Positions 8,496 through 23,945 of a DNA stretch of 32,159 nt are shown here, in pieces. The number at the start of each line of letters is the position of its first letter. Position 1 is the first letter of the stretch. The translations under genes were made by a program, and so were the position numbers. Below the pieces are notes generated by a model, which did not search any database, was not told where the DNA came from, and saw only the letters and a list, made by a program, of their open reading frames with translations. Source of the DNA: a virus. The stretch lies in the IMG/VR virus record IMGVR_UViG_3300043331_000319, positions 1 through 32,159 of that record. One strand, written 5' to 3'.

Positions 8496-10106
8496 ATGAT
8501 CAAGGCCGGCCCGAAGCCTGAAGCCTCCACCGCGGCACTCCCGCCGCTCACGGCCAGGACGCCGGCGGGCCGCGTCGAGGAGTTCTTTCGCCGACACTTG
8601 CGTCACGTGAAGGGCGAATGGGCGGGCCAGCCGCTTGAATTGGCCGCCTGGCAGAAGCGCGACATCGTGCGGCCTCTGTTCAACGCGCGTCTGGATGGGC
8701 GACGGCGCTACCGCACGGCCTACGTCGAGGTTCCACGGAAGAACGCGAAGTCGACCCTCGCGGCGGGCCTAGCGCTGTACCTGCTCTACGCCGACCGCGA
8801 GCCTGGCGCCGAGATCATCTCGGCCGCCGCGGACCGGCAGCAGGCGCACGTGACGTTCGACATCGCGCGCAACATGGTCGAGGCGTCGCCCGAGCTGGCC
8901 GCCCGGACGCGCATCTACCGGCGGGAACTGGTGACGACCGGGCCCGACGGGACCGAATGTACCTACCGCGTGATCAGCAGCGAGGCGTATAGTAAGCACG
9001 GCTTGAACCTGTCGGGCGCCATTGTCGACGAGCTGCACGCGCACGAGAGCGGCGAATTGCTCGACGTGCTGCGGACCAGCTTCGGCGCCCGCCGTCAGCC
9101 TCTGCTCTTCATGATCACCACGGCCGGCTTCGATCGCACGAGCGTCTGCTGGGCCGAGCACGAGATGGCGCTCAAGGTCCGCGATGGCGTCGTCGACGAC
9201 CCGTCCTACCTCCCGGTGATCTATGCTGCCGAGCTCGAGGACGACTGGACGAGTCGCGCGGTGTGGAAGCGGGCGAATCCCGGCTACGGCGTCACGATCA
9301 AGGCCGACTACCTCGCCCAGGAGTGCCGTCGCGCGCAGTCGATGCCGGCCTACGAGAACGCCTTCAAGCGGCTGCACCTGAACCTCTGGACGGAGCAATC
9401 GGACCGGTGGCTCCCCGTCGCCACGTGGGATGCGTGCGACGGGCCCGCGGACATCGAGACGCTCGCCGGCCGCGATTGCTACGGGGGCCTCGACCTGGCC
9501 TCGACGACGGACATCGCCGCGCTCACCCTGGTGTTCCCCTCGGAGGGCGACGAGGCGCGCTCGTACACCGTGATCCCGCGCTTCTGGATCCCGCGCGCCC
9601 GCCTCGATCACGCGCAGCGGCGAGAGCCGCGCATCCGGGATCTCCTCGCTCAGTGGGCCGCGCGGGGGCTCATCACGGCGACGCCGGGCGATGCGATCGA
9701 CTACGACGTCATCCGCCGCGAGATCACCGCGCTCACCCAGCGGGTGCGCATCCGCGAGATCGGGTATGACCGCTGGGGCGCCACCCAGCTCTCGACGCAA
9801 CTGCAGGGCGACGGGATCGCGATGGTGGAAGTCGGTCAGGGCTTCGCGTCGATGAGCGCGCCGACGAAGGACCTGGAGCGGCTCCTCCTCGAGCGGCGCA
9901 TCGCCCACGGCGGCCACCCGGTGCTGCGCTGGATGTTCTCCAACCTGGCCGTGCGGCAGGACGCGGCCGGCAATCTCAAGCCCGACCGGGAGAAGGCGAG
10001 CGAGAAAATTGACGGGATCGTGGCGCTGATCATGGCGATCGACCGGGCGGGTCGGCAGGCGACCCCGCGCAGCGTGTACGACACGCGCGGGGTGATCTAT
10101 GCCTAG
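8496..10106 (+). CDS. terL: Large terminase subunit
   Basis: This is the 536-residue packaging motor. The ATPase half has Walker A as VPRKNAKST (about 79-87) and Walker B with catalytic acid as GAIVDELHAH (174-183), followed by the coupling motif MITTAG (206-211). The nuclease half has GGLDLASTTD (330-339), with Asp333 as the first metal ligand, and EKIDGIVALIMA near the C-terminus, supplying a late acidic ligand. This is the Terminase_1/HK97 type at full length. It would cut concatemers and pump DNA through the portal encoded downstream. The ATG at 8496 is the only good start. Its end overlaps the next small gene by 8 bases. Confidence 0.95.
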   Translation: MIKAGPKPEASTAALPPLTARTPAGRVEEFFRRHLRHVKGEWAGQPLELAAWQKRDIVRPLFNARLDGRRRYRTAYVEVPRKNAKSTLAAGLALYLLYADREPGAEIISAAADRQQAHVTFDIARNMVEASPELAARTRIYRRELVTTGPDGTECTYRVISSEAYSKHGLNLSGAIVDELHAHESGELLDVLRTSFGARRQPLLFMITTAGFDRTSVCWAEHEMALKVRDGVVDDPSYLPVIYAAELEDDWTSRAVWKRANPGYGVTIKADYLAQECRRAQSMPAYENAFKRLHLNLWTEQSDRWLPVATWDACDGPADIETLAGRDCYGGLDLASTTDIAALTLVFPSEGDEARSYTVIPRFWIPRARLDHAQRREPRIRDLLAQWAARGLITATPGDAIDYDVIRREITALTQRVRIREIGYDRWGATQLSTQLQGDGIAMVEVGQGFASMSAPTKDLERLLLERRIAHGGHPVLRWMFSNLAVRQDAAGNLKPDREKASEKIDGIVALIMAIDRAGRQATPRSVYDTRGVIYA

Positions 10107-10245: not shown

Positions 10246-12279
10246 ATGGCTCTTCTTGACGCGATGCTGGCCCCCTGGCTGGCCCCGGAGCGTCGCTCCT
10301 ACTGGCTCGGCCCCTTCGGCGCCGGCGACAAGGCGCTCTCTGGCATCATGGGCGGGAAGCCGACCTATGCGGGTGTGAGCGTCACCGAGCAGACCGCGCT
10401 CACCCTCGCCGCGGTGTGGGCGGCGGTGACGATGATCTCGGGTGCCGTGGCATCCCTGCCGCTATTTTTCTACCGCCGCATCCCCGGCGGCAAAGAGCAG
10501 TACGTCACCCACCCGCTCTATCACCTGCTCCACGCCCAGCCCAACCCGCAGATGGGCACGTTCACCTTCCGTGAGGTGATCACGCACCACATGCTGCTGT
10601 GGGGGAACGCCTACGCGGAGATCCAGCTCGACGGCGGGGGACGCGCGCGAGCGCTCTGGCCGATCACCCCGGACCGCGTGACGCCGTATCAGGACCGGAC
10701 GGGCGCGCTCCGGTATCGCATCACCAACGGCACCCAGCCCGATGCCGACCTCGCGCCGGACCATCTGCTGCACTTCCGCGGACTCGGCTTCGATGGCGTC
10801 CAGGGCTACTCCGTGATTCGCGTGATGGCCCGCCAGTCCCTCGGATTGACAGCCGCCGCCGAGAAGTACGGCGCGCAATTCTTCGGCGCCGGGGCGCACG
10901 CGTCGTTCGTCGCGCAACACCCGGGGGAAATGGGACAGGAGCAGCAGAAGCGGTTCAAGGACTCGGTCAAAGAAGCGGTCGGGGGCGACAATGCGTTCTC
11001 GATCATGGTGCTGGAGGAGGGCATCAAGGTCGAAAAGATCACGATCCCGCCCGACGACGCACAGTTCCTGGAGACCCGGCGCTTCCAGACGGAGGAAATC
11101 GCGCGGTGGTTCAACATCCCGCCGCACAAGATCAAGGACCTGGAGCGCTCGACGAACAACAACATCGAGCAGCAGTCGATCGAGTTCGTCACCGACACCC
11201 TGGAGCCCTGGCTGAAGCGGATCGAGGAAGAGCTGACGCTCAAGCTCGTGCGTCCGCTGGAGAAGGGACTCCAGAAATTCGAGTTCCAGGTGAAGGGGCG
11301 CCTCCGCGGCGACACGGCGGCCCAGACCGCGCACTACGCCACGATGGTCACCAATGGCCTGTACACCCTGGACGAGATCCGCGCGTTCGAGGGGCTGAAT
11401 CCCCTGCCGGACGGACTCGGCGCTCGCGCGTTCCTCCAGGGCGCGATGGTGCCGCTGGATCGGATTGACGAGATCATCGACGCGCAGGTCCGACCCCGCG
11501 AGCCTGCGCCGACTCCGGCCGCTCCGCCTCCGCCGCAGCCGGCCGCGCCCGAGGACGATGCCGGCCGCGGCGATCGGGTCCGCGCCATCGTGACCGCCGT
11601 GGTGGCCGAGGTGGTGGAGGCCCTGCCCGCTCCACAGCCGGCACTCCCGCCGCCACCCGATCCTGCCCTTGGCGAATTGCGCGAAGTCTTGGAGTCGGTG
11701 CGCGGCGCGCTCGAGGCTGGCCGGGTCGATACGGCCGCGATCGCGCGGGCCACGGTGGACGCCTTGACGCCAGCCCTGGAGACGATTCGGGCCGCCGCGC
11801 CCCCCGCGCCCGACGAGACGGAGGCGATCGTGGCCCGCGTGGCCGGCGCGGTCTCCGCGGAGATGGCCTCGGTCCGCGGAGACCTTGCCGCTGCCCAGGA
11901 CGTGACGCGGCGTCTCCACGAGTGGCAACACGCGACGGTCGCCATGCTGGTTGGTCGCCTGGTCCGCCGGGAGATCGCCCACGCGAGGAAGCTCGTGGCC
12001 GAGCCAGCCCGCGCGGACGAGCGCATCGAGGCCTTCCGCGCCCGCTTTCACGGCGACGCGATGGAGGACCTCCGCCCGTGGCTCACCCGGGAGACGGGAT
12101 TGTCGGCGGCTCCGATCGGCGATGCCATCGAGGCGTGGGCCGCCGACGCCAGGACGGAGTGTCTCGCCGCCCTCACCTCGGGGACGCTGCCCGACCTGGT
12201 GCGACGGTGGGAGAACGGGCGCGCGGAAGCAAAAACTGCGGACCTGATGGGGGTGATCTATGGGCCGACAGCTCGTTGA
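10246..12279 (+). CDS. Portal protein, HK97 type, with long C-terminal extension
   Basis: The portal forms the ring through which DNA enters the capsid. Residues 1 to about 420 match HK97-type portals: VSVTEQTALTLAAVWAAVTMI, PLYHLLHAQPNPQM, HHMLLWGNAYAEI, the EIARWFNIPPHKI segment and NNNIEQQSIEFVTDTLEPW. The visible protein is 677 residues, well above the roughly 420 of HK97. A Pro/Ala-rich linker (about 420-445) leads to a helical region of 230 residues with repeated Val/Ala helices. A C-terminal domain follows (about 560-677, including VGRLVRREIAHARKLVAEPA). Such extensions are known in some portals, but their role here is unknown. ATG 10246 follows the previous stop by three bases. Confidence 0.93.
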   Translation: MALLDAMLAPWLAPERRSYWLGPFGAGDKALSGIMGGKPTYAGVSVTEQTALTLAAVWAAVTMISGAVASLPLFFYRRIPGGKEQYVTHPLYHLLHAQPNPQMGTFTFREVITHHMLLWGNAYAEIQLDGGGRARALWPITPDRVTPYQDRTGALRYRITNGTQPDADLAPDHLLHFRGLGFDGVQGYSVIRVMARQSLGLTAAAEKYGAQFFGAGAHASFVAQHPGEMGQEQQKRFKDSVKEAVGGDNAFSIMVLEEGIKVEKITIPPDDAQFLETRRFQTEEIARWFNIPPHKIKDLERSTNNNIEQQSIEFVTDTLEPWLKRIEEELTLKLVRPLEKGLQKFEFQVKGRLRGDTAAQTAHYATMVTNGLYTLDEIRAFEGLNPLPDGLGARAFLQGAMVPLDRIDEIIDAQVRPREPAPTPAAPPPPQPAAPEDDAGRGDRVRAIVTAVVAEVVEALPAPQPALPPPPDPALGELREVLESVRGALEAGRVDTAAIARATVDALTPALETIRAAAPPAPDETEAIVARVAGAVSAEMASVRGDLAAAQDVTRRLHEWQHATVAMLVGRLVRREIAHARKLVAEPARADERIEAFRARFHGDAMEDLRPWLTRETGLSAAPIGDAIEAWAADARTECLAALTSGTLPDLVRRWENGRAEAKTADLMGVIYGPTAR

Positions 12280-13060: not shown

Positions 13061-13146
13061 CCGACCCCGAGCAGTCGTAGTTTCCGCTGGGCGGGGGCCA
13101 CATCTGAGTCCTTGACCGGCGGGACGCCTCGCGACGCGCCCCTCAT

Positions 13147-13207
13147 CAGCGGGCGCCGCGTAGTCGGACGAACCATCAACGGTTCGCCGATGGCGCGGCG
13201 CCCGTTG
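13147..13207 (+). promoter_or_regulatory. Long hairpin in the capsid leader
   Basis: Within the leader, GGGCGCCGCG (13151-13160) pairs perfectly with CGCGGCGCCC (13194-13203), and the stem extends outward four more pairs (one G-U) to 13147/13207. After a small internal loop (TAG/TGG), TCGG (13164-13167) and, after one bulged A, CGAACC (13169-13174) pair with GGTTCGCCGA (13181-13190) around the loop ATCAAC. The result is a near-continuous stem of about 24 pairs. The capsid ribosome site AGAAGGA (13237-13243) lies outside it. It lacks a downstream T-run, so it is not a classical terminator. It may stabilise the mRNA or bind a regulator. Confidence 0.6.
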
Positions 13208-13252
13208 TCGTTTCGGAGGCCGCAGCCACGGCGGGCAGAAGGAACACCGCCG

Positions 13253-14632
13253 ATGACGACTCAGGAGCTGCGGGACAAGCGCCGCACCCTCAATCTCCAG
13301 GCCGACGCCATCCTGAAGAAGGCCCACGACGACAAGCGGGAGATCCTGACCGGAGAGGAAGAGCAGGAGTGGCAGCGGCTCCACGACGAGATGGACGCGC
13401 TCAAGCGTCACATCGACAAGCTGGAGGCGCAGGCCAAGCGTACGGAAGAGATCGAGGAGGTGCAGCCCCGCCAGACCGCGCCCAACCCCGTCGGGGCTCC
13501 CGCCGACGAGCGCCGCGGCGACCGCAACTCGCAGGCCGGGATGCGCTACCTGCGCCAGGGCCAGGCCGACATGGCTCGGGCCCTCCGGGCGTGGCTCCTC
13601 TACCCCGCCCCGGGCGTCACCCTAAGCGCCGAGGATCGGAGCGCGTGCGAACGCGTCGGCGTGAATCTCGCCTCGAAGAGCCTCGCGATCTCCCTCTCCA
13701 CCATGCCCATGCGCAGCCTCCGGGGCGACGACCAGCGGGAGTGGGAGTACCGGGCGCAGGCCGTGGGCACCGGCTCGGCGGGCGGCTTCGCGGTGCCCGA
13801 CGAGCTGATGCGGGCGTTCGAGCGGGCGATGCTGACCTTCGGCGGCATGCGCCAGCGCTGCACCGTGATCCGCACCGAGACGGGGGCCGATCTGCCGTGG
13901 CCGACGGCGAACGACACCAGCCAGAAGGGGCAGATCATCGCGGAGAACGCGGCCGCGAACGAGCAGGACGTCACCTTCGCCCAGCTCGTCCTCAACAGCT
14001 ACCTCTACAGCTCCAAGATGATCCGCGTCTCCGTCCAGCTCCTCCAGGACGCGGCCATCAACGTGGCGGCCGTCCTCGGGGATATGCTCGGCGAGCGCAT
14101 TGCCCGCATCACGAACGAGCACTTCACGACGGGCACCGGCTCCGGGCAGCCGAACGGGATCGTGACCGCGGCGACCGTCGGCTTCACGGCCAGCAATGGT
14201 ACGTCGCAGGTGACCACCTGGACGTATCCGAGCATCGTCGAGCTCGAACACTCCGTCGATCCCGCGCACCGGCTCAACGGCGCGTTCATGATGGCGGACT
14301 CCAGCGTGAAGAAGACCAAGCAGATCGTGGACTCCACGGGCCGCCCGCTCTGGGCGGCCGGGATCGCGGGCGGCGCCCCGGATACCCTGCTCGGCTACCC
14401 GATCGTGGTCAATCAGGACGTGGCCGCGATGGCGGCCGGCGCGAAGAGCGTGGTGTTTGGCGACCTCTCCAAGTACCTCATCCGGGATGTCCTCGGCGTC
14501 CAACTCCTGCGCCTGGACGAACGCTATGCGGAGTTCCACCAGGTGGCGTTCCTCGCCTTCGCGCGCCACGACGGCGACCTTCTGAACGCGGGCACCAACC
14601 CGGTCAAGGTCTTCGTCAACGCGGCGTCGTAG
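13253..14632 (+). CDS. Major capsid protein, HK97 fold
   Basis: The 459-residue product has an N-terminal helical delta/scaffold region (MTTQELRDKRRTLNLQADAI, coiled to about residue 75) and a basic polar linker. The HK97-fold body follows: VGTGSAGGFAVPDELMRAF, GADLPWPTAND, QKGQIIAENAAANEQDVTF, the LNSYLYSSKMIRVSVQLLQDA spine segment written here in two parts (LNSYLYSSKM and IRVSVQLLQDA), GTGSGQPNGI and the C-terminal VAFLAFARHDGDLLNAGTNP. The upstream protease would remove the N-terminal region. ATG 13253 was chosen because it has AGAAGGA nine bases ahead and matches the usual family start. The frame is open upstream to 13112, but that would cover the leader hairpin. Confidence 0.95.
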   Translation: MTTQELRDKRRTLNLQADAILKKAHDDKREILTGEEEQEWQRLHDEMDALKRHIDKLEAQAKRTEEIEEVQPRQTAPNPVGAPADERRGDRNSQAGMRYLRQGQADMARALRAWLLYPAPGVTLSAEDRSACERVGVNLASKSLAISLSTMPMRSLRGDDQREWEYRAQAVGTGSAGGFAVPDELMRAFERAMLTFGGMRQRCTVIRTETGADLPWPTANDTSQKGQIIAENAAANEQDVTFAQLVLNSYLYSSKMIRVSVQLLQDAAINVAAVLGDMLGERIARITNEHFTTGTGSGQPNGIVTAATVGFTASNGTSQVTTWTYPSIVELEHSVDPAHRLNGAFMMADSSVKKTKQIVDSTGRPLWAAGIAGGAPDTLLGYPIVVNQDVAAMAAGAKSVVFGDLSKYLIRDVLGVQLLRLDERYAEFHQVAFLAFARHDGDLLNAGTNPVKVFVNAAS

Positions 14633-15305: not shown

Positions 15306-15896
15306 GTGGCCCTCACCCTCGTCACCGCGCCCGCGAAGTCCCCCGTCGGCCTGGCCGAGGCGAAATCCTGGGCCCGGATCGAGACGGGGGACGAGGACGC
15401 GCTCATCCTCGGCCTGATCGAGGCGGCCCGCGGCTATCTCGGCGACCTGGACGGCTACACCGGGCTCGCGTTCATCACCCAGACCTTCGACTACTCCCTC
15501 GACGCCTTCCCCGCGTGCGGCTTTACCCTTCCGCGCTGGCCGGTGCAGTCGGTGGCTTCGATCACCTACATCGACTCGGCGGGTGCCAGCCAGACGCTCT
15601 CGGCCCTGGCCTACCAGGTGGACACCAAGTCCATGCCGGCCCGCATCGCCCCGGCCTACGGCACGACCTGGCCCTCGACGCGGACGATCCTCAACGCCGT
15701 CACCGTCCGCTTCGTCGCGGGGTATGGCGATGATCCCGGCGACGTGCCGGCGCCGCTCCGGGCCGCGATCATGGCTCTCGTCGCGCACTGGTACGAGAAC
15801 CGGGAGCCCGTGAACATCGGCAACATCACGACGCCGCTCCCCTGGCACGTGGCGCAGCTCGTGGCGCCGCATCGCCTGACGACGGGCGTGGGATAG
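15306..15896 (+). CDS. Head-tail connector (gp6-like)
   Basis: The 196-residue product has the helical N-terminus of the HK97 gp6/phiE125 gp8 connector group: SPVGLAEAKSWARIETGDED, ALILGLIEAARGYLGDLDGY and GLAFITQTFDYSLDAFP. Strands follow (LPRWPVQSVASITYID), with VRFVAGYGDDPGDVPAPLRA, an AIMALVAHWYENREPV helix and a short tail. It would dock under the portal as the first ring of the neck. It starts at GTG 15306 with AAAGAGG just ahead. Length and motif order are normal for the family. Confidence 0.88.
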   Translation: MALTLVTAPAKSPVGLAEAKSWARIETGDEDALILGLIEAARGYLGDLDGYTGLAFITQTFDYSLDAFPACGFTLPRWPVQSVASITYIDSAGASQTLSALAYQVDTKSMPARIAPAYGTTWPSTRTILNAVTVRFVAGYGDDPGDVPAPLRAAIMALVAHWYENREPVNIGNITTPLPWHVAQLVAPHRLTTGVG

Positions 15897-17301: not shown

Positions 17302-18759
17302 GTGGCGCGCTCCTTCACGCGCGGCTCCTCCGAGTACCTGGAGCATGCCGCCGCCGCCCTGACCGCCGCGCCCATCACCCTCGCCTGCTGGGCGTACGTG
17401 CTCGACACGACGAACACGCACACCCTCATGTCCCTCGGGGACGCGGGCACGGCCGTCAACGGATTCCACCTCCAGGCGCGAGGCGCCACCGGAGGTGATC
17501 CGGTCACCGCGCGCACGAACAACGCGAACGCCGACAGCGCGTCCGGCTATCCAGCAAACACGTGGTTTCATGCGGCGGCGGTGTTCGCCGCCTCCAACTC
17601 CCGCTTCGCCTACCTGAACGGCACTGCGGGCACCGAGCAGACGGGTTCGGCCACGCCAGCGCCCGAGGTGACGTCGATCGGGCGGCGGAACAACACCACG
17701 CAGGACTACCTGGACGGCTCCGTCGCCGAGGCCGCGATTTGGAACGTCGCCCTGACGGCCGCCGAGATCGCAGCGCTCGCCCAGGGCGTGTCGCCGCTCT
17801 TCGTCCGCGCCGGCAACCTCGTGGCCTACTGGCCACTCCTGGGACGCACGTCGCCCGAGATCGACCGCGTGGGGCGCTTCGACCTGACCGCGACGGGCAC
17901 GGTCGCGATTGCCCACCCGCGCATGGTGGGGCGGCCGTCGACCGTCCACGTAGAGCGCAGGACGACGGGGGCCACGGCCTATACCCTCGACGCGGCCCCA
18001 GGCAGCTACGCGATCACCGGCGCCGCTGCGGCCCCCCTCGCGGCCCGCCTGGTGAGTGCCGATCCTGCGACCTACGCTGTGACCGGGGCGGCGATGGCCA
18101 CCATCGCCGCCCGATCCCTGGTAGCCGATCCGGGCACCCTGGCGATCACCGGCGCCGCTGCGTCGCTTCTGGCCACCCGGGTGCTCGCCGGGGATCCGGG
18201 CGCGCTCACCATCACCGGCGCGGCGAGTACGGTGCTCGCGGCCCACCTGCTGGTAGCCGATCCGGGCACCCTCACCCTCGATGGCGAGGACGCCGAACTT
18301 GATCACGCCACGGCCGGCGACTACGTGCTGAACGCCGACCCCGGCAGCTACTCGCTCACGGGGCTCGCTGCGGGCCTCACGGCCGTGCGTTCCCTGCCCG
18401 CCGATCCCGGCGCGTACGCCATGACGGGGCAGGCCGCGAGCCTCACCGCGACGCGACGGCTGGAGGCCCTACCCGGCACCTATGTGGCCACGGGCGAGGT
18501 GGCTGGGCTCTACGTCGGCCGGGCGCTCTCGGCCGACCCCGGCGCCTACCAGGCGACCGGCGCGGTAGCCGGCTTGGTGGCCACGCGCGTCCTGGCCGCC
18601 GTGCCCGGGCTGTATCTCCTGACTGGCTCCGCGGCGACGCTCCTTGCCGGGTCGGGGATCACCCTCGGCGACATCCGCCACGGCACCGTGCGCATCCTCA
18701 CGCCGACCCGGACCGTCCTCGCCCTCACGCCGCGGCGCACCACGGTGCTCGCGGAATGA
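17302..18759 (+). CDS. LamG-like protein with ten C-terminal repeats
   Basis: Residues 1 to about 215 form a concanavalin/LamG-type jelly roll: SRGSSEYLEH-like opening (FTRGSSEYLEHAAAA), PITLACWAYVLD, WFHAAAVFAASNSRFAYLNG and YLDGSVAEAAIWNVALTAAE, ending NLVAYWPLLG. Such domains bind sugars. From about residue 230 a 22-residue unit, typified by ADPGTLAITGAAASLLATRV, repeats ten times. A conserved short C-terminus (about the last 30 residues) closes the protein. It is likely an exposed virion fibre or decoration that touches host glycans. This is inferred from the domain type and its place among structural genes. It uses GTG 17302. Confidence 0.8.
   Translation: MARSFTRGSSEYLEHAAAALTAAPITLACWAYVLDTTNTHTLMSLGDAGTAVNGFHLQARGATGGDPVTARTNNANADSASGYPANTWFHAAAVFAASNSRFAYLNGTAGTEQTGSATPAPEVTSIGRRNNTTQDYLDGSVAEAAIWNVALTAAEIAALAQGVSPLFVRAGNLVAYWPLLGRTSPEIDRVGRFDLTATGTVAIAHPRMVGRPSTVHVERRTTGATAYTLDAAPGSYAITGAAAAPLAARLVSADPATYAVTGAAMATIAARSLVADPGTLAITGAAASLLATRVLAGDPGALTITGAASTVLAAHLLVADPGTLTLDGEDAELDHATAGDYVLNADPGSYSLTGLAAGLTAVRSLPADPGAYAMTGQAASLTATRRLEALPGTYVATGEVAGLYVGRALSADPGAYQATGAVAGLVATRVLAAVPGLYLLTGSAATLLAGSGITLGDIRHGTVRILTPTRTVLALTPRRTTVLAE
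17989..18657 (+). repeat. Tandem 66-bp (22-residue) coding repeats
   Basis: Ten units begin with a D/A-P-G/A motif. The proline codons lie at 17998, 18064, 18130, 18196 and 18262, 66 bases apart, then at 18340 (a 78-base step caused by a four-residue insert) and on at 66-base steps. Identical DNA blocks of about 20 bases recur 132 bases apart (for example at 18010/18142 and 18118/18250). That suggests recent duplication or gene conversion rather than only protein-level conservation. Confidence 0.85.
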
Positions 18760-19094
18760 CCTACCACCTCGTGGCCGGCCAGACGGGCAACCAGGACTTC
18801 CAGCTCCTGGAGAATGACGCGCCCCTGGCCGTCTCCATCCAGGGCATGACCGTCGCTCTCGTCCTCCGCGACAACCGCGGCGAGCTGGTGGCCACCACGG
18901 GCGACGTGACGGTCCTCGACGACGGCACGGCGGGCACGCGGGGCAAAGTGCGCGTGAACCTCGACGCGGACGATGTCGTCTACGCCCGCAGCCCCTACAC
19001 CGCGCGCTGGAAGATCACCGACGGCGCCGGGAAGATCAACTATTTCCCGACGGCGGACGCGGATACCTGGATCGTGGGCCGGGGGGAGACATGA
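18756..19094 (+). CDS. BppU-like or immunoglobulin-like structural protein
   Basis: The 112-residue product reads FQLLENDAPLAVSIQGMTVA, VALVLRDNRGELVATTGDVT, GKVRVNLDADDVVYARSPYT and ARWKITDGAGKINYFPT. This strand series with ARWxITDxxGxxxYFP is typical of the N-terminal domain of baseplate upper proteins (BppU) and related phage Ig-like proteins. The ATG at 18756 overlaps the preceding gene (ATGA). It may pair with the LamG-repeat protein as its virion anchor, since the two are adjacent and coupled. That is inference. Confidence 0.65.
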   Translation: MTYHLVAGQTGNQDFQLLENDAPLAVSIQGMTVALVLRDNRGELVATTGDVTVLDDGTAGTRGKVRVNLDADDVVYARSPYTARWKITDGAGKINYFPTADADTWIVGRGET

Positions 19095-19411
19095 GGGCCG
19101 GGCGTCTCCGCCACCGGATCGAGATCCAGCGCGCCACCGTCACGCGCGACGCGATGGGCGGCGAGATCAAGGCGTGGCAGACCACGGCCATCCGCTGGGC
19201 CAACGTCGTGCCGCTCGCGGGCCGGGAGTATTTTGCCGGCCAGGCGGGCGACGCGACCGTGAGCCACCGGATCGAGCTGCGCTACCTGCCCGGCATCGTG
19301 CCCTCGATGCGCGTCAAGACCGGCGACCGAGTCCTCGACATCGAGGCGGTGCTCGACATCGAGGGCCGCCATCGCGAGCTGCACCTGATGGCGACGGAGG
19401 CCGTGGCGTGA
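19091..19411 (+). CDS. Head closure / head-tail joining protein
   Basis: The 106-residue product has the family layout of SPP1 gp16-like head-closure proteins: AGRLRHRIEIQRATVTRDAM, GGEIKAWQTTAIRWANVVPL, AGREYFAGQAGDATVSHRIE, then LRYLPGIVPSMRVKTGDRVL and a final DIEAVLDIEGRHRELHLM. It would seal the neck and bind the tail. ATG 19091 overlaps the preceding stop (ATGA) with GGGGGGAG upstream. It lies 3.2 kb from the gp6-like connector rather than next to it. Confidence 0.9.
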   Translation: MRAGRLRHRIEIQRATVTRDAMGGEIKAWQTTAIRWANVVPLAGREYFAGQAGDATVSHRIELRYLPGIVPSMRVKTGDRVLDIEAVLDIEGRHRELHLMATEAVA

Positions 19412-19557
19412 TCTGCCCGATCTGCGGCGAGCCCGCCCGCATGGTCCAGCGCGACACCGCGCGTGGCCAGACGGCGACGACCTACTACCACGCGCGCACC
19501 AACCACGTCGTGGGCCGCATCCCGGCGAAGCCCGTCGAGGCGGCAGGGCGGATCTGA
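19408..19557 (+). CDS. Tiny zinc-ribbon protein, 49 aa
   Basis: GTG 19408 overlaps the head-closure stop (GTGA), and the TGA at 19555-19557 overlaps the next ATG (TGATG). The peptide begins ICPICGEPARMVQRDTARG and contains a later His (YYHARTNHVVGR), giving a C-x2-C plus His/His metal site. It resembles the other small zinc-ribbon genes in the window. It is short, but the coupling on both sides and the motif support it. Confidence 0.6.
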   Translation: MICPICGEPARMVQRDTARGQTATTYYHARTNHVVGRIPAKPVEAAGRI

Positions 19558-21779
19558 TGCCCTACTCCGTCACCGGCCTCGATCTCATCCCGGAGACCTA
19601 CCCCGCCCCCACGCTCCCGGGCGCCGCGGGTGGCACGTTCGTCGAGCCCGAATTCGGGCGTCGCGTGATGCAGGTGACGGCGAACGCATCGGGCGGCGTC
19701 TCGATGCACTCCTACTCCAGCCGCTCGCCGTTCTCTCGCAACTCGACGCGCGTCCTCTTCAAGACTGAGGGCACCGGCTGGCTCGTGCGCGCAGTCGACC
19801 CGGCGGCGTTCTCGCTCGGAGCGCAGATGAGCAATCTCGGCGCGGCCGTCTATCAGGACCCGCTCCTCTGGGACTGGAGCGGCGACCACGAGACGCGCCT
19901 CTACGGGGCCTGGCACGGCATCGGGTCCGATCCCGAGGCGGACGGCTACCGCCAATTCGTCTATCTCGACGCGGACACCTATTCTGGCGTCGGCTCCGCT
20001 GTGCTCCTCAAGGATTTCTCGTCGAATCTCCGACTCGATGGCGTGGTGACCTCGGGATCGAACAACACCACCTTCGTCCACAATGCGGGCGCCCCGACGT
20101 CGCCGATCACCGACTTCGCCACCCATTGGTTCACCGGCCAGAAGATCCGCTTCGCGACGGACACGACGACGGTGGCCTTGCGCGGCCAGCGGTACACGAT
20201 CTCGTCCTACGATGCGGGCACGCGCACGATCGTCACCACCGGCGCAATGGCCGCCACGCCCGCGAGCGGGGACACGTTCTACGTCTATCCCGCCGGCTAC
20301 GGACTCCACTTCGCCGCGTCGACCGATGGCGTGTGGGTGGCCACGGCGATCAGCGAGCCCGCGGGCGCGGGCGGGGACATCGCGCATACCCTCGTGGCGT
20401 ACAACCGCGTCACGGACACCGTCTACGTCCGCCGCGCGAGCAAGGCCGAGTTCGCCGGCGTCGACACCGGCGGCGTGCACCGCATGGGCTTCGAGCGCGG
20501 CACTGGGCTTGCCACCCCGCGCGTATTCATCTCGATCTTCTCGCCCGCGAAGTCCGCCGTGTGGGACATCGTCGCCGGGACCATCGAGTCGGACTCGGAC
20601 AACCTCGGCCACGAGGATGAGACTTACGATGGCCGCGCGTTGTCGGGCCAGACGGGCCAGACCCTCGCCTACGACCTGGCCGACATTGCCGCGGCGCCCG
20701 CGGTGGCCTTCGATCCGCCCAAGAAGGACTCGAAGTACATGTACGCCACCACGGCCCACGTGGGCTGCGCCGCGGAGGACACAGCGCTCCTCTCCACCTA
20801 CGTGAGCTACGGCGCGTGGCCCGCCGGCTGGGCGAACGTCACCGGCGCCGTGTACGTCTACTCCGGCGGCTTCCTCGCCCGCGACGCGCGCGCGATCCAT
20901 GCCACGCCCGCGAATCTCGGCGAAGCCCGATACAAGGGCACGCGCCTGACCTACATGGGCACGACGTCCGGCGCGATCGTCGGCGCCGGCCAGTGGGCCT
21001 ACGACCCCGCCGGCAACAGCGGCAACGGCACGCTGTGGGTGCGGACGCAGGACGACGCGGACTTGACGAGCGGCGCGAACAACCAATGGCTCGACGTGTT
21101 TGACTGGCGGTGGGGGCAGCAGGAAATCTGGCTGGCCCACATCGGGAACCCCGCTGTCGTCGACTCGTTTACCCGCGCGTGCAAGACCTACTCGTGGATC
21201 AATCCCACGGGCAGCGGCGCGGCCAGCTCGGCCACCGTCGCCGGACCCCGAGCGGCGCCCAACCGAGACGGCACGCTCGTCATGTGGACGTCCACGTGGG
21301 GCCCGCGGGATGTCGTCGACGTGTTCATCGCGGAGATCATCCCCGAGGAGCCCGCTCCGGTCGGGCAACTCGAGGAGGCGCTTTACGCGCGCCTGTCGGG
21401 CTACGCCAGCCTCACCGCACTCGTGGGCGCGCGCATCTATCCGCTGCGGGCTCCGCAGACGGCGCCCTTGCCCTACGTCGTCTACCAGAGAATCTCGACC
21501 ATCCGATGGTCCGCGATGGGCGTCGACACCGGACTCGCCCGTCCCCGCATGCAGCTCACCGCCTGGGCATCCACCCCGGCCGCCGCGAAGGCCGTCAAGG
21601 AGCAGGTGCGCGCGGCCCTCCAGCGCTGGCGCGGGACGGCCGCGAACGTGACGATCCTCGATTCGTTTCTCGCCGACGAGCGCGACCTCGTGGACGAAGA
21701 GCAGCAGGAGGCGGGGCGCGGCGAGGCCGGGGCCTACGGCGCATCCCTGGACGTGCTGATCCCGCACCGGGAGAGCTGA
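19557..21779 (+). CDS. Beta-propeller-like protein fused to DUF3168 tail completion domain
   Basis: This 740-residue product has two parts. Residues 1 to about 590 read GLDLIPETYPAPTLPGAAGG, FGRRVMQVTANASGG, then SYSSRSPFSRNSTRVLF and a series of beta strands like a WD40/TolB-type propeller, including LLWDWSGDHETRLYGAWHGI. A region at about 440-515 (GQWAYDPAGNSGNGTLWVRT) may be an inserted domain. From about residue 603, EEALYARLSGYASLTALVG, RIYPLRAPQTAPLPYVVYQR, RMQLTAWASTPAAAKAVKEQ and the final LDVLIP match the usually separate tail-terminator protein (DUF3168). There is no stop or frame change at the junction. An in-frame GTG at 21321 could start the tail domain alone. The tail domain is firm; the propeller call is moderate. 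Confidence 0.8.
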   Translation: MPYSVTGLDLIPETYPAPTLPGAAGGTFVEPEFGRRVMQVTANASGGVSMHSYSSRSPFSRNSTRVLFKTEGTGWLVRAVDPAAFSLGAQMSNLGAAVYQDPLLWDWSGDHETRLYGAWHGIGSDPEADGYRQFVYLDADTYSGVGSAVLLKDFSSNLRLDGVVTSGSNNTTFVHNAGAPTSPITDFATHWFTGQKIRFATDTTTVALRGQRYTISSYDAGTRTIVTTGAMAATPASGDTFYVYPAGYGLHFAASTDGVWVATAISEPAGAGGDIAHTLVAYNRVTDTVYVRRASKAEFAGVDTGGVHRMGFERGTGLATPRVFISIFSPAKSAVWDIVAGTIESDSDNLGHEDETYDGRALSGQTGQTLAYDLADIAAAPAVAFDPPKKDSKYMYATTAHVGCAAEDTALLSTYVSYGAWPAGWANVTGAVYVYSGGFLARDARAIHATPANLGEARYKGTRLTYMGTTSGAIVGAGQWAYDPAGNSGNGTLWVRTQDDADLTSGANNQWLDVFDWRWGQQEIWLAHIGNPAVVDSFTRACKTYSWINPTGSGAASSATVAGPRAAPNRDGTLVMWTSTWGPRDVVDVFIAEIIPEEPAPVGQLEEALYARLSGYASLTALVGARIYPLRAPQTAPLPYVVYQRISTIRWSAMGVDTGLARPRMQLTAWASTPAAAKAVKEQVRAALQRWRGTAANVTILDSFLADERDLVDEEQQEAGRGEAGAYGASLDVLIPHRES

Positions 21780-21780
21780 G

Positions 21781-22512
21781 ATGCCGAGCGACGTGATTCG
21801 CAACGCCAAAGTCTGGATGGGCGGCTTCAACGTCTCGTGCGACCTGAACGCCGTCGCGATGGTCAAGTCGCGCCGCCTGGTCGAGGCGCCGACCCTCTGC
21901 GACGTCGGCATGGTCCGCCGCGGCGGGCTCGCCAGTGTGGATCTGAGCCTCACGGGCTACTGGACGGGCGAGCTGACGGACCCGCTCTTCTACGGCCATC
22001 TCGGGCTCGCGGATATCCCGATCACCGTCTCGCCCGGCGCGGCCGATAGCATCGAGGCCGGCGCCACCGGCGCGCGCGCCTTTCTGTTCCGCGCCGTCGA
22101 GGGCGAGTACACCTTCGGCGGCGCGATCGGCGACATGCACGCCGCGCGCGCGACCGCGCAATCCTCGGCCGGCGATCCGCTCGTGCGGGGGACGCTCCTG
22201 CACAACGGCACGCAGAGCAGCGGCGCCGCGGCCAGCACGCCGCTCAACCTCGGCGCGGTCGCGAGCGGGAAGCGCCTCTACGCGGCGCTCCACGTCCTCG
22301 CCGTCGCGGGCACGCTGGACGTGCTCGTCGCCAGCGACGACGCGGAGGCGTTCGGGAGCCCGACGGCGCGGATCGTGTTTACGCAGGCCAGTGCCGTCGG
22401 CTCGCAGTGGGGCACGCCGGTCGCCGGGCCGATCACGGACACCTGGTGGCGGGCTTCGTGGACGGTGGCCGGCGGCGACGCCACGTTTGTCGTCGCAATG
22501 GGAATCGAGTAG
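21781..22512 (+). CDS. Tail-tube-like protein, first of two
   Basis: The 243-residue product begins IRNAKVWMGGFNVSCDLNAV, followed by GGLASVDLSLTGYWTG, then GDPLVRGTLLHNGTQSSG, LYAALHVLAVAGTLDVLVAS, FGSPTARIVFTQASAVGSQW and GPITDTWWRASWTVAGG. The strand order (G-F-N-V start, a hairpin, then LYAALHV and WWRASW late) is that of phage major tail proteins. It lies directly before a second tail-tube-type gene, so one may be the tube and the other an initiator, capping or decorated variant. ATG 21781 follows the previous stop by one base with GGGAGAG ahead. Confidence 0.75.
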   Translation: MPSDVIRNAKVWMGGFNVSCDLNAVAMVKSRRLVEAPTLCDVGMVRRGGLASVDLSLTGYWTGELTDPLFYGHLGLADIPITVSPGAADSIEAGATGARAFLFRAVEGEYTFGGAIGDMHAARATAQSSAGDPLVRGTLLHNGTQSSGAAASTPLNLGAVASGKRLYAALHVLAVAGTLDVLVASDDAEAFGSPTARIVFTQASAVGSQWGTPVAGPITDTWWRASWTVAGGDATFVVAMGIE

Positions 22513-22530: not shown

Positions 22531-22956
22531 ATGGGTTCATTTGTCCTCAGCGACGCCTTCATCAGCATCAACGGGGTCGACCTCTCCGACCAGGTGGAAT
22601 CCGTCGAGATCACCCACGCGCGCGCCCTCAAGGAGTTCACGACGATGGGCAAGGCGGGCATCGTCCGCAAGGCCGGGCTCTACGACTGGTCCGCGCGCAT
22701 CACCTTCTTCCAGAACTTCGATGCGGCGAAGGTCGACGCCACGCTCTTTCCGCTCGTGGGCGTCCAGACGGCGCTGCGCATCCGCTCCGTCAACGGCGCG
22801 GCGATCTCCGCCACCAATCCCGAGTACCAGGGCAACGGGATGATGGCCGAGTACCCGATCCTCGGCGGGGAGACCGTCGGCGAGCCCGGGAAGGCCAGCG
22901 GCGTCACGTTCGTCATGTCGGACGGAGTGGCGCTGGTCCGAGACACCACGCCGTAG
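22531..22956 (+). CDS. Major tail tube protein
   Basis: The 141-residue product has the standard series of siphovirus tube proteins: VLSDAFISINGVDLSDQVES, EFTTMGKAGIVRKAGLYDWS, ARITFFQNFDAAKVDATLFP, LVGVQTALRIRSVN, SATNPEYQGNGMMAEYPILG and KASGVTFVMSDG. It would polymerise around the tape measure to form the tail. ATG 22531 has AAGGGGGGATGAG just upstream. Length is normal for the small-tube type. The assembly chaperone gene follows at once, as in lambda-like tails. Confidence 0.88.
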   Translation: MGSFVLSDAFISINGVDLSDQVESVEITHARALKEFTTMGKAGIVRKAGLYDWSARITFFQNFDAAKVDATLFPLVGVQTALRIRSVNGAAISATNPEYQGNGMMAEYPILGGETVGEPGKASGVTFVMSDGVALVRDTTP

Positions 22957-23566: not shown

Positions 23567-23945
23567 GGTCCGGGGGCTCGCGCAGTTCAAGCGCAACGTG
23601 GCCACCCTCAAGGATCAGGTGGAGCTGCGCGCGGCGGTCCGCGCCGTCGAGGCCGGCGCTGCGATCTTCCAGCGCGGCATGAGCGCCCGCGCGCCCCGCG
23701 AGACGGGCCAGCTCGCGAGTGACATCCTGGTGGAGCTGCACGTGATCCGCGGGGCCATCGTGGCGCGCGTGGGCCCCTCGCGCCGCTCGTTCTACGGCAC
23801 GTTCCTCGAGTTCGGGACGCGCTACCGGGCCGCGCATCCCTTCGTCCGCCCGACGCTCGATGAGGACTCGACGCCGGTGCGCACGACGATGGATCGCGAA
23901 TTCCGCGCGGCGATCGACGCGGCGGCACGCCACCTGTCGGTATAG
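23559..23945 (+). CDS. HK97 gp10-like neck/tail completion protein
   Basis: The 128-residue product reads VRGLAQFKRNVATLKDQVEL, AVRAVEAGAAIFQRGMSARA, PRETGQLASDILVEL and FYGTFLEFGTRYRAAHPFVR with a helical end. GALxFQxxxxxxAPxxTGxL...YgxFLEfGT...a.PFlrPa is the HK97-gp10 family pattern, usually a neck or tail-completion protein. It is normally encoded before the tail tube, but here it lies between the chaperone and the tape measure. It starts at GTG 23559, overlapping the chaperone end. Confidence 0.85.
   Translation: MAEVRGLAQFKRNVATLKDQVELRAAVRAVEAGAAIFQRGMSARAPRETGQLASDILVELHVIRGAIVARVGPSRRSFYGTFLEFGTRYRAAHPFVRPTLDEDSTPVRTTMDREFRAAIDAAARHLSV

Follow-up and report, generated by a model that had tools for sequence, protein, structure and literature searches.

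What kind of protein is encoded when the open reading frame in the tail terminator position of a phage runs to 740 amino acids, given that siphovirus tail terminators are mostly regarded as minimal, conserved plugs? We address this question for a gene on an IMG/VR virus record of 32,159 bases (70% G+C), all of which was analysed and is referred to here as the window. We consider it reasonably probable that a tail terminator gene has become joined, at its start codon, to a β-propeller gene, and that the product would form a hexameric collar at the neck with an auxiliary role in glycan adhesion.

Gene neighbourhood and the tail terminator domain

Judging from its gene content, the virus is an uncultured long-tailed phage with a siphovirus-type morphogenesis module (Table 1), which also encodes a tape-measure-like protein and a central fibre J. 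The gene order Ad1 ... Hc1, small ORF, Tc1, major tail protein (MTP) is that of a Type 1 neck (PMC4362835), and the gene in question sits between Hc1 and the MTP gene, as Type 1 terminators do. The small ORF (beginning MICPIC and at best zinc-ribbon-like, E = 0.13) overlaps its two neighbours, Hc1 and the fusion gene, by no more than a few bases. Ne1 is encoded downstream of the tail tube genes, its usual place being between Hc1 and Tc1. The two major-tail-type genes stand in tandem, the first product being about 100 residues longer at its C terminus, and a comparable pair occurs in L002, L003 and L004. Upstream of the neck genes, the LamG domain of another protein is followed by imperfect repeats of about 20–25 residues (ADPGxYxxTGxAAxLxAxRxL), and this repeat part resembles proteins of Manatee Spring phages.

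Table 1 Features of the window discussed in the text, with their positions and supporting evidence
Feature	Position	Strand	Evidence or remark
Large terminase	8496-10106		
Portal	10246-12279		
Major capsid protein	13112-14632		
Ad1 connector	15306-15896		
LamG protein	17302-18759		
Hc1 head closure protein	19091..19411	+	PF05521, 107 bits
Small ORF, 49 aa	19408-19557		Between Hc1 and fusion gene
Fusion gene, predicted propeller and tail terminator Tc1, 740 aa	19557..21779	+	Stop-free ORF, uniform GC3, neighbours overlapping or abutting
Predicted propeller region, residues about 19-595	19611..21341	+	Family profile, 41.6 bits; fold by way of family member L104
Insertion 1 relative to family, residues about 157-245	20025..20291	+	Family alignment
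Insertion 2 relative to family, residues about 418-515	20808..21101	+	Family alignment; approximate boundaries
In-frame GTG, proposed internal start	21321..21323	+	3-base Shine-Dalgarno-like match only
Linker IPEEPAPV, residues 595-602	21339..21362	+	Between free-propeller end and free-Tc1 start
GAGGAG nine bases before GTC (V602)	21345..21362	+	Position of homologues' start codon
Tail terminator domain Tc1, residues 603-740	21363..21776	+	PF11367, PHROGs, AF2, Foldseek
Major tail protein	21781..22512	+	phrog_9522, E=4e-36
Second major-tail-type protein	22531..22956	+	phrog_4574
Ne1 (HK97 gp10-like)	23583..23816	+	PF04883, 41.4 bits

The first-pass annotation, made from the sequence alone, had read the last 138 residues as a tail terminator, and profile and fold searches bear this out. 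Residues 607–717 match PF11367 (Tail_completion_gp17) with E=3.3e-20 and a score of 72.9 bits (cut-off, 24.5), and the PHROG tail terminator families agree with this assignment. The AF2 model of residues 601–740 (pLDDT mostly >90) retrieves through Foldseek the terminators of phiXacJX1, GTA, Mu, SPP1 and lambda (entries 9lbn_K, 6tba_4A (TM by target 0.80), 2lfp and 3fzb), and this part shares 42% identity with a free-standing terminator of 136 aa from L002, the phage whose major tail protein is nearest. Residues 603–740 constitute a Type 1 tail terminator. The terminators known to date cap the tail as hexamers and offer a surface for head joining (PMC11784142).

The predicted propeller region and its family

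Residues 1–590 are not covered by any model in Pfam, PHROG or NCBIfam, no WD40 or TolB repeat model of Pfam matches the fusion protein at E≤1, and direct searches with this part (three viral-contig scans, genome contigs and INPHARED) returned no close relative. The only route to homologues was a degenerate DNA pattern based on the final propeller blade. Most of its other matches were due to chance; the pattern led to locus L031, which in turn led to about 50 bacterial loci (Myxococcus, Corallococcus, Massilia, Lautropia, Lysobacteraceae and others). Phage copies were also found, a second DNA pattern led to a further phage subfamily, and more divergent members occur in Myxococcota. The resulting unnamed family spans Myxococcota, Burkholderiales, Xanthomonadales and some phages (L031, L034–L083, L100–L110 and L117–L122), is often secreted in bacteria (that is, with signal-peptide-like starts), and its tested members have no significant match in Pfam, PHROG or NCBIfam. 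Loci L034–L083, L100–L110 and L113–L122 point to a widespread secreted β-propeller family, of which some Myxococcota genomes hold two copies. In the Xanthomonas jumbo phage LucasX, a propeller copy lies inside a 1172-aa protein with an Ig domain, encoded two genes after the host-specificity fibre gene and adjoining a GH5 cellulase-like gene (the propeller–Ig and GH5 cellulase-like proteins at L123:4831-10612).

The family profile scores 20 bits against the fusion protein, and a profile including the divergent members scores 41.6 bits (E=1.6e-12), where 200 shuffled sequences reached 6.0 at best. In a global profile alignment from which both insertions had been taken out, the score is 39.2; 60 shuffles gave no more than 8.8, and the reversed sequence gave 4.1. 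The family is collinear with the N-terminal part at both ends and in part of the middle; alignments of the whole part put the middle out of register, owing to the two insertions. The first of these is weakly similar to part of a protein of Synechococcus phage S-CRM01 (33% over 88 aa; E=1 in the whole collection and 5e-5 in a small set). For a phage member of the family, L104, AF2 gives an all-β fold (pLDDT 84, pTM 0.81) with the oligogalacturonate lyase 3pe7 as best PDB match (E=5e-16, 15% identity) and WD40 propellers next, such that the family is predicted to adopt a β-propeller fold. When the full fusion protein was modelled, the terminator alone folded, the N-terminal part (a single sequence without relatives) reaching a pLDDT of about 33. 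Residues ~19–595 would therefore be a propeller by homology to the family, and the WD40/TolB-like propeller of about 590 residues named by the first-pass annotation appears right in fold, on profile homology only. Two otherwise invariant family motifs are altered in the fusion protein (RNDYSRRQ to MHSYSSRS, and EPHA to GPRA), and, with near-invariant motifs missing, the N-terminal part is at most a divergent member of a wider superfamily.

A putative neck collar and competing readings

We propose that a siphovirus Tc1 gene was joined at its start codon to a gene of this secreted bacterial and phage propeller family. The Tc1 part would form a hexamer that caps the tail tube and links it to the head, like known Tc1 proteins, and from its N terminus the propeller would hang by an eight-residue Pro/Glu linker. 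About six propellers of ~60 kDa, each with two inserted domains, would thus probably crown the neck and may project around it as a collar; whether they face outwards would depend on the direction of the Tc1 N terminus. Six copies at the neck with a binding role had been suggested from the sequence, and the present reading retains both in conditional form. The likeliest task of such a collar would be auxiliary adhesion to glycans of the host surface or the environment, and an auxiliary hold on surface glycans is to us the most economical reading. In lactococcal phages of the 936 group, neck and tail decorations with carbohydrate-binding modules bind host cells (PMC6669499).

The closest solved fold of the family being a lyase, the propeller might instead be a neck-mounted, polysaccharide lyase-like enzyme cleaving slime or capsule in the vicinity of the virion. 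The N-terminal part has counterparts of several family histidines (VHRM, GHED and TTAHV), and the LucasX copy lies beside the GH5 cellulase-like gene. However, the EPHA histidine is Arg in the fusion protein, an enzyme-like fold does not demonstrate activity, and depolymerases usually sit at the tail tip. Given that two family motifs are lost, binding is likelier than catalysis, and we regard an enzymatic role as unlikely.

A propeller that binds no host ligand could also serve as an assembly aid or passive structural collar, taking over a neck or scaffold function. Terminators touch both head and neck, and in some of them extra domains have structural roles (PMC11784142), but Ad1, Hc1 and Ne1 are all encoded elsewhere in the window, so that nothing obvious is replaced, and the propeller family is otherwise secreted; we find this reading improbable. 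In particular, the idea that the propeller replaces Ne1 was dropped, as Ne1 is encoded downstream.

In a further reading, the two parts would not stay together. Free propellers of the family stop at fusion residue ~594 and free terminators of related phages begin at 602–603, and the joint is, on alignment, a clean end-to-start joining through IPEEPAPV. This exposed Pro/Glu linker might be cleaved, or internal initiation might free Tc1, the propeller then being shed or becoming a non-virion product. A GAGGAG precedes V602 and an in-frame GTG lies at 21321, from which the first-pass annotation had derived a possible short tail-domain product and a mixed ring. That proposal was abandoned: this GTG, one of 38 internal in-frame ATG, GTG or TTG codons, is all but devoid of a Shine-Dalgarno match. 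GAGGAG, for its part, is followed by GTC, which is not a normal start. The GAGGAG hexamer may be a relic of the start of a separate Tc1 gene, yet it could be chance, given that it has 29 copies on the same strand and that Glu-Glu codons readily produce it. Overall, separation of the parts seems to us distinctly unlikely. A bolder version of the collar, in which the terminator rings of long-tailed phages are a general docking platform for surface-active domains and six large, still active lyase-like propellers would form a glycan-processing crown on the neck, is highly doubtful; if true, it would place such enzymes at a virion location not known for them.

Each of these readings presupposes that the gene is what it appears to be. 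It starts with ATG and has no internal stop over its 740 codons, and GC at codon position 3 (GC3) is 0.80–0.97 in all of its 30-codon blocks (across the junction, 0.93 in codons 571–600 and 0.87 in codons 601–630), as expected of one coding frame; in accidental long frames around other PF11367 genes, the same measure makes a frame switch visible. All three forward frames are free of stops from 21261 to 21480, and a single-base indel therefore cannot mask a nearby stop/start pair. The fusion gene is genuine and intact and keeps to a single open frame, as the first-pass annotation had noted. Although the fusion is known from a single metagenomic contig, the joining of two genes by an assembly or sequencing artefact is very improbable, as it would take at least two coincident substitutions at the joint to conceal two genes, no alternative stop lies near the joint, GC3 is uniform and the neck gene order is intact on either side.

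Rarity of the fusion and comparison with known systems

The first-pass annotation knew of no such fusion in other phages, and rarity is what we found: the propeller–terminator fusion occurs in 0/22 related phage loci and 0/114 prophage terminators, the latter comprising 107 over-cut-off PF11367 places in 398 Pseudomonadota genomes and 7 in 396 Actinomycetota genomes. Of the IMG/VR terminator loci (several of which are copies of one phage), 21/22 are free-standing or best read so. Relatives had also been envisaged in which a stop and a start part the two halves; the terminators of related phages do stand free, but without this propeller. The longest over-cut-off open frame in the prophage set is 449 aa, and in the four longest frames around PF11367 (339–449 aa) the GC coding signal switches frame upstream, so that none was kept as a fusion; a 770-aa case was set aside as a sub-cut-off match in an ORF unlike a phage protein. 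No ORF at the loci searched other than the fusion ORF matches both profiles (92 propeller and 27 terminator ORFs). No relative with propeller and terminator as adjacent genes was found in these loci, no second phage with the fusion in the collections searched, which leaves one metagenomic contig, and no such fusion in the open-licence literature. A widespread secreted propeller family that lacks a library model is now tied to a predicted virion protein.

With Tc1 proteins (PF11367; SPP1 gp17, lambda gpU and the GTA terminator), the fusion protein shares the profile, the position between Hc1 and MTP, the AF2 fold and the Foldseek matches, but these are normally free and 120–140 aa long, whereas here Tc1 is the C-terminal fifth of a 740-aa protein. 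With the propeller family, the N-terminal part shares collinear homology and a natural C-terminal end; members of the family are free or tail-cluster proteins, whereas the fusion copy carries two insertions and a terminator. The likeness to oligogalacturonate lyase (3pe7) applies to L104 only and, at the low identity given above, is one of fold alone. No match to a BppU-like N-terminal ring domain or coiled-coil trimer appears among the Pfam and PHROG results.

The neck passage structure of 936 phages would likewise put multivalent binding domains at the neck, but in that case the collar is made of a protein of its own, which surrounds the connector, has other domains and is not part of the terminator (PMC6669499). 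Terminators of myophages and contractile systems are also enlarged by additional domains (PMC11784142), although there the extra part is concerned with sheath termination or is a terminator-like duplicate, in contrast to a predicted propeller in a siphovirus-type module. A further comparison is offered by the remaining IMG/VR terminator locus, L026 (IMGVR_UViG_3300002220_001748), another phage in which the same terminator family carries a carbohydrate-type domain, CBM_4_9 (33 bits against 25.9). This domain, also weakly similar to a GTA head-spike fibre domain, belongs to a different family and is inserted after helix 1, before the IYPMRAPQ strand (L026:5470-6288), whereas the propeller is N-terminal. 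The terminator ring would thus have been decorated at least twice, independently, and the two cases suggest that it can act as an attachment point for host-contact domains; if so, this would aid the reading of neck densities and provide a simple search rule, namely over-long PF11367 genes.
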